Positions 1,477 through 4,445 of a stretch of DNA of 64,000 nt are shown piece after piece. Position 1 is the stretch's first letter; every line of letters starts with the position of its first letter. Both the position numbers and the translations under genes were made by a program. Below the pieces are notes generated by a model that made no database searches, had not been told where the DNA came from, and saw only the letters and a list, made by a program, of their open reading frames with translations. Source of the DNA: a virus. Location: positions 1-64,000 of IMG/VR virus record IMGVR_UViG_3300010399_000036; one strand, written 5' to 3'.

Positions 1477-1686
1477 ATGAGCAAGATAGAAGAAAAACGT
1501 TATTACACGGAGAAGGAGTTTTGCGAAATGATGGGAATCACCCGCAAGACGGCCCACAAGTGGCGCAAGGATAAGACGATCGGATTCATGAGAACGCCGA
1601 CAGGCTTAATACGCTACAGAGAAACCGACATCCAAGAATACGAACGGCGGACAGGTAATCGTCCCAGGGCGCAACGTGCAGCTTAA
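1477..1686 (+). CDS. Excisionase-like (Xis/MerR-type) HTH protein
   Basis: 69 residues. The whole protein is a MerR/excisionase-type winged helix: YYTEKEFCEMMGITRKTAH (helix-turn-helix), then a wing with TPTGLIRYRETDIQEY. Its 3' end overlaps the 3' end of the leftward integrase by 4 nt, an arrangement typical of recombination directionality factors beside their integrase. It could instead be a small transcriptional regulator; the position favours Xis. Confidence 0.7.
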   Translation: MSKIEEKRYYTEKEFCEMMGITRKTAHKWRKDKTIGFMRTPTGLIRYRETDIQEYERRTGNRPRAQRAA

Positions 1687-2816
1687 TCATCTTCTTCTAA
1701 AAGCTCAGCCGCTCGCTTTCGCGTCTGCTTGTCTGCGTGCATATAACGCCATGTGGTGCTAGGTTGAGTATGGCCCAAAAGTTTTCCAGTCTCACTCAGC
1801 GACAACCCTTTCTTAACCATCCTGGTTGCGGCCGTGTGGCGGGCGTCGTGCAGTCGAAAGTTAGCGTCAGCAAGGCCGGCCAATTTCTTCGCAGTATTGA
1901 AAGATCGTTTCACGGACTGAAACCCGAACAGCAGATCGCCGGGTTGTTTATCTTTGCAGAGGTTACGCAGTTCGTTAGCGAGCCGGAGGGTCATATCGAA
2001 TTGACGTTCGCGGCGCCGCTTTCCTTTGTAGGAAATTGCCGTGATGCAATTGTCTTCAAAGTTGATGTCAGCAACCCGCAAGCGGTACATCTCACTCCCG
2101 CGAAACCCGGTGTCGAACGCCAAGATCAAAAACGCCTTGAGATGTTCCCGTTGGCCGGTACAGGCAGCAAGCAAGCGCTCCCGCTCTTCTTTGGTGGCTA
2201 TTCGTTCCCGTGGCTGTTCTTCGGCAAGGTTGATGAGTGGATCTCCCTGACCGAACGGATTGCGGGTAATCCACTTGTTTTGAACAGCCACGGTGAAGAG
2301 TCGGCGCAGCAAGGAAAGCTCGCGGTTGACAGAAGCTATCGAACGCGGGCGCTGCTCCTCTCTATACTTCCCTTTCCCGATTCTCTTGTGAACCACAACC
2401 GGAGTGCTGAGCCGCAAACGTTTGAAGGCGGCAATATCGCCGTAGGATATTTCCCGTGCCCGACCGTGGAAATGATCACGAAGCGTTTTCAGTTTGCGCT
2501 TAACATCCTGGTAGCTTCTAAGCCCGGTTTTCTTGATGCCGTGCTTGTCATACTCAGCAGGTACGGCGTATTCCCTTTCGTAGTAGTCCGCGAGTTGCTT
2601 AAACGTGAGGCTGGCACCGTCGATGCTCCGCTCGTCTCCCTGATCTTCGAGCTCGTCAAGCATCTCTTTGATATGCCTGCGCGCTTCGCGAGACGTACCG
2701 GAAATCGCTTTACGTTTGCGCTCCCGTCGCTTACCCTGCGCATCAACCCATGTGACGCGGCCATACAAAGCCCCCGCTGCGTCTCTCCAGAACGATCCAG
2801 TTCGGTCCCGCCCCAT
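1683..2816 (-). CDS. int: Tyrosine recombinase / phage integrase
   Basis: Leftward gene. The catalytic half carries the expected residues: Arg I in FDTGFRGSEMYRL, the H-x-x-R box in LHDARHTAATRM, then LGHTQPSTTWRYMH with His and the nucleophile Tyr. An N-terminal arm-binding segment (GRDRTGSFWRDAAGALYGRV) and a SAM-like core-binding domain precede it. I chose the ATG at 2816, where homology-like sequence begins (377 aa); a TTG at 2855 or GTGs between would add up to 13 residues, and none has a good ribosome site. It lies about 150 nt from the tRNA-Lys-like attP core and should integrate the phage into that tRNA gene. Confidence 0.93.
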   Translation of the reverse strand: MGRDRTGSFWRDAAGALYGRVTWVDAQGKRRERKRKAISGTSREARRHIKEMLDELEDQGDERSIDGASLTFKQLADYYEREYAVPAEYDKHGIKKTGLRSYQDVKRKLKTLRDHFHGRAREISYGDIAAFKRLRLSTPVVVHKRIGKGKYREEQRPRSIASVNRELSLLRRLFTVAVQNKWITRNPFGQGDPLINLAEEQPRERIATKEERERLLAACTGQREHLKAFLILAFDTGFRGSEMYRLRVADINFEDNCITAISYKGKRRRERQFDMTLRLANELRNLCKDKQPGDLLFGFQSVKRSFNTAKKLAGLADANFRLHDARHTAATRMVKKGLSLSETGKLLGHTQPSTTWRYMHADKQTRKRAAELLEEDD

Positions 2817-2970
2817 AAAAACAGCCACATTCACAACCACGTATCGGAGGCGCAACAGGTTACACGACTACCCCAAGAGTTACAAGATTTCCCTATGATA
2901 AATCGCTCTAAGGGGCGTAAAATAAGGGTTAACGTGGGATTCCTTAATGATTCGAAAAGTACAGGACGCG

Positions 2971-3017
2971 GACTCTTAATCAGCGGGTCGCAGGTTCGAG
3001 CCCTGCTCGGCTCACCA
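2971..3017 (+). other. Putative attP core: 3' half of tRNA-Lys(CTT)
   Basis: The stretch reads as a tRNA from the anticodon loop onward: loop CTCTTAA with anticodon CTT, T-arm GCAGG-TTCGAGC-CCTGC at 2990-3006, acceptor strand TCGGCTC at 3007-3013, discriminator A and encoded CCA at 3015-3017. The matching 5' half is absent upstream, so this is not a working tRNA. Integrases that target tRNA genes carry exactly such a 3' fragment in attP. Direct repeats CTAAGT at 3024-3029 and 3045-3050 (21 bp apart) could be arm-type integrase sites. The rest of 2856-3127 holds no gene I can support. Confidence 0.8.
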
Positions 3018-3127
3018 GAATTCCTAAGTAAATCTCACAAATCTCTAAGTCAACAAAGTAGCAACCACCTATCGAAACCACCTTCGGCTTTGATGGGTGT
3101 ATTTGCATGCGCGGGAGGCGCTATTTG

Positions 3128-3688
3128 ATGCCTTATCTCTACGCCATACAAATGGTTATTCCGGACTACGCCTTCCCGCCACTAAAAGTCGGTTTTACTA
3201 CTAACCCTGAATCCAGACTCCGACATTACGGTAGTGGGCCGTTTCCTACTCGTTGGCTTGGCTGTTGGGAGGCCGTTGAGGGTGAAAGCGAGGGTGAGAT
3301 CCACGCCCGCTTTGCTAAGCATCGGCTCACCGGCGAATGGTTCTATCCCGATACCGATCTAGTCCAGTTTGTTGAGCAACGAATTGGAACGACAATTGAG
3401 GCCATTGTCGAACGAGAATCTGCGGGTCGTGAGAAGCGCTATTACGATCTCTTTGTCGGGCAGTTTGTGACAGCGACAAACAGTGAATTCAGTGGCCAGA
3501 CTGGCTACTGTGACGATATGGAACAGGATCATGCCGTAGTTTACTTCGAAGCTTTTAACGATGGCTACGATTTGGTTCCGGCTAAGTTTCTTGCCAGGGC
3601 TAATGAATCGGCGGCGAAAAGGTATCAAGCTGAATACATGAGAACTTTGCAGCGCTGGTATGCGCCCGCTGCACACTTATGCGCGTAG
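3128..3688 (+). CDS. GIY-YIG nuclease family protein
   Basis: 186 residues from the ATG at 3128, preceded by GGGAGG at 3113-3118. Family features are present: an N-terminal YLYAIQ strand (GIY-like), KVGFTT (YIG-like position), the Arg of the ESRLRHY segment, then GESEGEIHARFAKHRLTGEWFYP, the E-x3-H-x3-F/W pattern of the T5orf172/MUG113-like branch. The residues after about 95 are a poorly conserved tail. Likely a structure-specific or homing-type endonuclease. It is the first gene on the other side of attP from int. Confidence 0.75.
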   Translation: MPYLYAIQMVIPDYAFPPLKVGFTTNPESRLRHYGSGPFPTRWLGCWEAVEGESEGEIHARFAKHRLTGEWFYPDTDLVQFVEQRIGTTIEAIVERESAGREKRYYDLFVGQFVTATNSEFSGQTGYCDDMEQDHAVVYFEAFNDGYDLVPAKFLARANESAAKRYQAEYMRTLQRWYAPAAHLCA

Positions 3689-3698
3689 TTGATAGACC

Positions 3699-4445
3699 AT
3701 GACCGCCTATTACAACGAACTCGATCCGTTCGCAGCCGCATGGTTGAGAGAGCTGATCAAAGAAGATCTGATAGCACTAGGCGAAGTTGATGAGCGTAGC
3801 ATTGAAGAAGTTAAACCAGACGATCTCCGAGGATTCACACAATGCCACTTCTTCGCCGGCGGCGGCGGATGGTCGTTTGCCTTGCGACTCGCGGGAGTCT
3901 CTGACGCCGAGCCTGTTTGGACCGCATCATGTCACTGTCAACCGTGGAGCGTTGCAGGAGAAAAACAGGGCCATCAAGACGAACGCGACCTTTGGCCGTG
4001 TTTCTTTCGGCTCTTCGCAGAGCGCAAACCTGCAACGCTGTTTGGAGAACAAGTTACGGGAGCGATTCGTTGGGGATGGCTCGACAGAGCCTTCGATGAT
4101 CTTGAGAAAGCGGGTTACGCCTGCGGGGCGAAGATTATGCGAGCTAGTACCGTTGGCGCGGACCATGAACGCAAGCGGGTCTTCTTTGTGGCCGACGCCT
4201 GCGGCTCGCGATGGCAAGGATCTATCCCGAACAACCGCGTATCTAGCCGCGCGCACACGTCACTCTCCGTCGATGGCGACTCGTTTGTTAGGGCAGGGCG
4301 CGCCTTGGCGGGTGATTACAGGGATTTACTGCCTAGCGATGGGCTATCCGTCCAAATGGAACGAAACGCGCTTAAAGTCTACGGCAATGCAATCGTTCCA
4401 CAAGTCGCGCAAGCCTTCATCGAAAGCTACATGAGTTTAGTGTGA
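3699..4445 (+). CDS. DNA (cytosine-5)-methyltransferase
   Basis: 248 residues. SAM-binding motif I is FFAGGGGWSFAL near residue 50. The catalytic loop reads SCHCQPWSVAG, with the Cys nucleophile but His where most family members have Pro. A FGEQV segment takes the place of the usual ENV motif, and motif X is YGNAIVPQVAQAFI near the end. It should methylate cytosine at C5 and may protect phage DNA from host restriction or modify host DNA. No restriction endonuclease partner is adjacent. The protein is shorter than most C5 enzymes, with a small target-recognition region. Confidence 0.85.
   Translation: MTAYYNELDPFAAAWLRELIKEDLIALGEVDERSIEEVKPDDLRGFTQCHFFAGGGGWSFALRLAGVSDAEPVWTASCHCQPWSVAGEKQGHQDERDLWPCFFRLFAERKPATLFGEQVTGAIRWGWLDRAFDDLEKAGYACGAKIMRASTVGADHERKRVFFVADACGSRWQGSIPNNRVSSRAHTSLSVDGDSFVRAGRALAGDYRDLLPSDGLSVQMERNALKVYGNAIVPQVAQAFIESYMSLV

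Follow-up and report, generated by a model that had tools for sequence, protein, structure and literature searches.

A half tRNA gene, lying close to a divergently transcribed integrase gene in the record of an uncultivated virus, raises two questions: whether it is the attachment site (attP) of a temperate phage, and which host gene that phage would enter. The DNA analysed here, referred to as the window, corresponds to bases 1-64000 of the 81,118-bp virus record IMGVR_UViG_3300010399_000036. The 47 nt at 2971-3017, GACTCTTAATCAGCGGGTCGCAGGTTCGAGCCCTGCTCGGCTCACCA, can be read directly as the anticodon loop CTCTTAA, the 3′ side of the anticodon stem, the variable loop and the T-arm (GCAGG/CCTGC), followed by the acceptor strand TCGGCTC, then A and finally CCA. 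Around the 7-bp loop, CGCGGA (2967-2972) is an imperfect inverted repeat of TCAGCG (2980-2985), which reflects the symmetry of the anticodon stem. The core and its neighbouring genes are as follows.

2971-3017, plus strand: attP core, 3′ half of tRNA-Lys(CTT) from anticodon loop to CCA (sequence and genome matches)
2973-2979, within the core: probable 7-bp crossover region CTCTTAA
2967-2972, no strand assigned: putative left core-type half-site CGCGGA (sequence read directly)
1683-2816, minus strand: tyrosine integrase, 377 aa (PF00589, E 6.5e-28; ATG at 2816)
1477-1686, plus strand: HTH_17 protein, excisionase-like (PF12728, E 4.3e-10), convergent with the integrase
3107-3688, plus strand: T5orf172/MUG113-domain protein beside the P′ arm, with a counterpart at the same place in the related locus L146

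ARAGORN detected no intact tRNA gene within the 64-kb window or in the remaining 17 kb of the record, so that the full 81,118 bp did not contain the intact tRNA-Lys gene that, according to an earlier note on this DNA, would have spoken against an attP here. Rfam gave no match within the window, and the core occurs once in the whole record. We then ran the search of bacterial genomes that the earlier note had proposed. Among 84,980 species genomes, the exact 45-nt core was present at 18 loci in 12 MAG assemblies, all of them Acidobacteriota; the eight assemblies named to class were all Blastocatellia and the other four were named to phylum only. According to ARAGORN, 10 of these 18 loci are intact tRNA-Lys(CTT) genes. 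The remaining eight hold the half without an intact tRNA, and six of them lose similarity to the intact gene just left of the anticodon loop, the exceptions being one locus that retains a longer stretch (L008) and another that starts at a contig end (L017). An exact match of 45 nt at 18 loci, 10 of them intact tRNA-Lys(CTT) genes, means that the resemblance is not due to chance. The tRNA end fragment of the phage is thus identical to that of a host tRNA, and the proposal that the core is the 3′ half of tRNA-Lys(CTT), with attB in the corresponding host gene, was borne out. The acceptor start GAGCCGA predicted for that gene was one base off: all 10 intact genes start with GGGCCGA, position 2 pairing as a G-U wobble. 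The same core is also carried by three viral contigs.

Whether the record represents a phage circle or a chromosomal junction could be decided at its ends. A DUF5131 gene (PF07505, E 1.8e-79) reads in frame across them, its profile match reaching 243/243. The 81,118-bp record is circular by this completed reading frame, one of the forms that the earlier note had proposed, and the site is consequently an attP, neither attL nor attR. PHROGs matches to terminase, portal, major head and tape-measure proteins identify a tailed phage. Phage genes do lie on both sides of the core, the integrase on the left and T5orf172 and methyltransferase domains on the right. The cytosine methyltransferase at 3699-4445 has only 248 aa, its Pfam match spanning positions 67-168 of 324, and may be truncated or unusual. 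We are highly confident in the overall explanation, namely that this is a temperate tailed phage seen in its circular (non-integrated or circularly permuted) form.

The core lies 157 nt from the start of the divergent integrase gene, for which a longer ORF extends to a TTG at 2855. Its product is a member of the tyrosine recombinase (phage integrase) family by its PF00589 match and by the full R-K-H-R-H/W-Y set: R239, K266, H323, R326, H349 and Y358, which we take to be the catalytic residues of this family, were invariant in an alignment of 20 sequences. The small HTH_17 protein also matched the excise profile TIGR01764, below cut-off (E 1.6e-5). An HTH_17-type gene lies at the same place in the two loci with the nearest integrases, L145 and L146, with an HTH_17 match below cut-off in L145. 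This protein is a candidate directionality factor that might direct excision.

The surroundings of related integrases were then compared. In the class of genome G013 (the source of locus L016), represented by 162 genomes, 43 carry an integrase matching at E values up to 1e-35. Thirty family loci were fetched among the 70 matches listed (L025 included), and under a strict rule 22 of the 30 had, immediately 5′ of the integrase gene and in the opposite orientation, a tRNA 3′ half. Among the eight that this rule missed, three have the half by eye (L025, L055 and L078), two have a half that runs into the contig edge (L072 and L077) and three have no divergent half (L056, L058 and L070). Halves named from their anticodons by eye derive from Val, Thr, Arg, Ala, Glu, Phe, Leu, Asn, Met and Lys tRNAs in the genomes, and from Lys, Gly, Thr, Arg and His tRNAs in viral contigs. 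A single-sequence search of the viral contigs found no relative of the integrase; an alignment search did, at 80 loci, 23 of which were examined. Nine of these 23 have a divergent half 5′ of the integrase, two (L149 and L165) a half 5′ on the same strand and two (L158 and L166, from the same records as L003 and L002) a half 3′ on the same strand; the other 10 showed none in the vicinity of the integrase. The nearest integrases (54 and 53%), L145 from IMGVR_UViG_3300018429_000003 and L146 from 3300019487_000005, have a tRNA-Lys(TTT) core and form the sister group of the window sequence with 100/100 support. In this tree, built on 58 rows from chosen loci (L057, with a broken frame, being left out), the family rows show at least 18 changes of target amino acid. 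The earlier note had named a different core in related prophages as a sign against its proposal. Different cores were indeed found, literally as described, but they do not contradict an attP because they are again tRNA 3′ halves at the same place.

Outside this family the arrangement differed. In 16 of 19 loci of another integrase group (counted with L026, L027, L034, L038 and L049 left out), the integrase gene sits at the CCA end and is transcribed towards the tRNA. Phage records gave, for the integrase region, only methyltransferase genes among the matches listed; the best tblastn match of the integrase itself reached 33.5% (L049), and there the strict rule returned only a doubtful same-strand half without CCA. 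Capsid relatives were found at eight loci in viral contigs, with an integrase domain in two of those eight records; one showed no tRNA half in its surroundings (L116) and the integrase of the other did not match the query (L115).

These comparisons bear on two other explanations of the half gene. Some phages carry tRNA genes, one example being given in PMC11924767. A translation-supporting tRNA gene that had decayed by losing its 5′ half would leave what the window contains, only half of a tRNA. We regard this origin as extremely improbable, since the remaining half is identical to host genes over 45 nt, breaks exactly at the anticodon loop and adjoins an integrase gene, since related loci are cut at the same point in other tRNAs, and since the rest of the record holds no tRNA. 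The second explanation, which we consider very unlikely, replaces the free circular phage by a junction, either of tandem integrated copies or of phage and chromosome. The sequence of a tandem junction equals that of attP, and an array and a circle look alike by sequence. Phage genes on both sides, a single core in 81,118 bp and a DUF5131 gene completed across the record ends exclude the chromosomal attL or attR reading, which was rejected outright on the closed circle. We retain, with strong confidence, the interpretation of the 2971-3017 region as the attP of a temperate tailed phage that would target a tRNA-Lys(CTT) gene of a Blastocatellia host.

Where the integrase would bind outside the core was addressed by comparing the flanks of the window with those of the related loci. 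Three sets of repeats had to be placed.

2821-2844, plus strand: P-arm tandem pair, arm-type-like, ACAGCCACATTC/ACAACCACGTAT, 12-bp pitch (comparison with L145 and L146)
3062-3086, plus strand: P′-arm tandem pair, CAACCACCTATCG/AAACCACCTTCGG, 13-bp pitch (repeats and relatives)
3024-3050, plus strand: CTAAGT direct repeats at 3024 and 3045, 21 bp apart

The P-arm pair lies directly against the integrase start codon, in exactly the position seen in L145 and L146, and holds the sole plus-strand CCA[CG]ATTCA of the 64-kb window, a motif present in both of these loci. The first unit of the P′-arm pair matches 2834-2846 at 12 of 13 positions, the 13-mer common to both arms reading CAACCACGTATCG at 2834 and CAACCACCTATCG at 3062. 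This match was reached in 2 of 200 shuffles, or in 2 of 40 in a second comparison, and the window pairs are imperfect, the left units being alike at 8 of 12 positions by eye. For both reasons the assignments in the window rest on the relatives. In 18 of 31 family loci, two direct copies alike at 9 or more of 10 bases lie near the integrase start with a pitch of exactly 12 bp; the 31 include the window, whose pair is too imperfect to count among the 18. No other pitch between 6 and 30 reaches more than two family loci, spacings of 20-22 bp are rare, and pitch 12 occurs in none of the 19 loci of the other integrase group. On both arms, the relatives carry tandem pairs of ~10-bp repeats at a pitch of 12-13 bp. 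In all 12 attP with both arms readable (L156 was dropped at a contig end), a 13-mer of the left arm recurs on the right with 11-13 of 13 positions alike; it lies 118-177 nt to the left of the core and 11-64 nt beyond CCA. For eight of these sites, no more than 2 of 40 shuffles attain such a match.

The earlier note had instead assigned the arm role to the CTAAGT repeats. These are real, and their 21-bp distance corresponds to two helical turns; GTTACA repeats spaced by 20 bp at 2859-2898 are real as well, and CTAAGG is also present at 2908. However, CTAAGT occurs nine times in the window, and the ~60 nt that follow the tRNA half in L145 and L146 contain no such pair. Pitch 12, not 20-22 bp, dominates in the relatives, and the pairs of the nearest ones lie elsewhere, at places where the window likewise has CCACATTCA and ACCAC units. 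That either the CTAAGT or the GTTACA repeats are the true arm sites is thus unlikely; they are probably not arm sites and rank second to the tandem pairs. The predicted arm-type sites are one tandem pair on each side, at 2821-2844 and 3062-3086. An integrase bound at the left pair, which reaches the start codon of its gene, might limit its own expression.

Taken together, the family loci make us lean towards an integrase family that is common in phages and in the genomic islands of Blastocatellia, combining a rigid geometry with tRNA targets of about a dozen amino acids and an arm motif that differs between lineages, changing along with the integrase. The same leaning covers the geometry itself: integrase start, tandem arm pair, ~110-150 nt, tRNA half cut at the anticodon loop, ~10-65 nt, and a second tandem arm pair. 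If true, the family would provide a natural series in which target change by an integrase could be studied.

Host prediction was then pursued within the class. With a 52-nt version of the core, 11 of the 162 class genomes matched with up to three mismatches, MAG8 (G011) alone matching all 52. The probable host of this particular phage, as far as its attachment site can tell, is a Blastocatellia (Acidobacteriota) group, with no species named. A single site would in this way assign a probable host class to an uncultivated phage, in a class known largely from metagenomes. We found no integrated copy of the window phage and no attL/attR pair of its own in these searches; portal relatives occurred in just two of the 162 class genomes, which indicates that no close provirus is present there.

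Integrated relatives were found as islands. Three genomes (G042, G046 and G104) were chosen because their halves share tRNA-Asn; in a fourth, G152, the tRNA and the half are on different contigs. In all three islands with both ends on one contig, an intact tRNA-Asn stands at one end and the integrase with the fragment at the other, the half lying 65.5 kb (G042), 85.8 kb (G046) and 47.7 kb (G104) from the intact gene. This is the layout predicted for the window provirus, with the restored tRNA opposite the integrase and the displaced fragment. None of the 10 proteins scanned from these elements (five, three and two, respectively) was a phage structural protein, and the elements look like genomic islands, which suggests that phages and islands have the module in common.

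Several observations concern these elements themselves. The 65.5-kb island (G042:C2:476815-542364, L133-L136) carries an AcrB-type efflux protein, a P-type ATPase and an OLD-like nuclease, and the 85.8-kb island (G046:C2:1078760-1164633, L140-L141) two very large RHS-repeat proteins of 2166 and 1734 aa. The 47.7-kb island (G104:C1:306407-354156, L137-L139) combines a family integrase with type I-E CRISPR-Cas (Cas3, Cse1) and a long repeat array of 90 and 11 repeats at two adjacent loci, apparently a case of CRISPR immunity carried by a mobile, integrative island. Its spacers (89 plus 10) share no 18-mer with the phage and thus lend no support to the host prediction. The Blastocatellia genome G064 (loci L113, L118, L119, L121 and L123-L132) has a high load of tyrosine recombinases, with 28 matches versus 4 in G157.

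The mechanism that we propose is conditional in its binding and exchange steps. The divergent tyrosine integrase would link the core to the tandem arm-type sites that flank it on either side, and strand exchange would take place within the 7-bp anticodon loop. The target would be the tRNA-Lys(CTT) gene of a Blastocatellia host. Integration would leave at one junction a restored tRNA-Lys with a phage-derived 3′ half, and the original 3′ half of the host gene would end up next to the integrase gene, at the other junction. That integration would restore the host tRNA, as stated in the earlier note, is supported by a fragment running from the anticodon loop to CCA. As read from sequence, the case is built on the core, its host counterpart, the integrase with its conserved residues, the circularity and the recurrence of the same geometry in relatives, including integrated ones.

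The analysis confirms the site as a real attP of a well-known kind, with a textbook mechanism; what the analysis adds is a predicted host, a revised placement of the arm sites and a conserved integrase module whose tRNA target switches. Its value lies in the predicted host group, in arm and core sites whose predicted positions can be tested, and in a comparative series of integrases with common geometry and differing targets. Lambda-type heterobivalent tyrosine integrases use core-type sites and arm-type sites, the latter on both flanks and bound by an N-terminal domain, a 7-bp overlap and an excisionase. The window phage resembles the lambda type in its catalytic residues, probable 7-bp overlap, putative arm sites on both flanks and small excisionase-like gene nearby. 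It differs in that its target is a tRNA gene, in having one tandem pair per arm at a 12-13 bp pitch, and in a pair motif that varies between lineages.

A search of titles and abstracts (Blastocatellia/Acidobacteria, integrase and phage literature) found no paper describing this site, and the available part of PMC11924767 contains no attachment site. As set out in the Islander paper (PMC4383910), attP fragments restore the tRNA gene on integration, and 2083 islands were counted at anticodon-centred sites and 1836 at T-stem-region sites; PMC8371274 notes that the anticodon loop and stem resemble a 7-bp overlap and core sites. The window site is like Islander class A (crossover in the anticodon loop; PMC4383910) in that attP has the tRNA 3′ end, the gene is restored and the old fragment is displaced. 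It is unlike that class in belonging to a new phage and to a host group for which few described cases were found, with the integrase divergent and on the fragment side.

Closest to the window are L145 and L146, with the same divergent half, arm pair abutting the integrase start and HTH_17 gene; they differ in their core, tRNA-Lys(TTT), the other lysine isoacceptor. Halves of the tRNA-Lys(CTT) gene were seen in many contexts (L002, L003, L004, L008, L010, L013, L019, L020, L021 and L022). As an integration hot spot, this gene serves integrases in at least three arrangements: 5′ and divergent, 3′ on the same strand, or 3′ and convergent. An 8-kb element at the tRNA-Lys(CTT) gene of MAG8 (L040, L014/L020) shares its attB with the window phage, but its integrase belongs to the other group (35% identity) and lies convergent on the CCA side of the intact tRNA.
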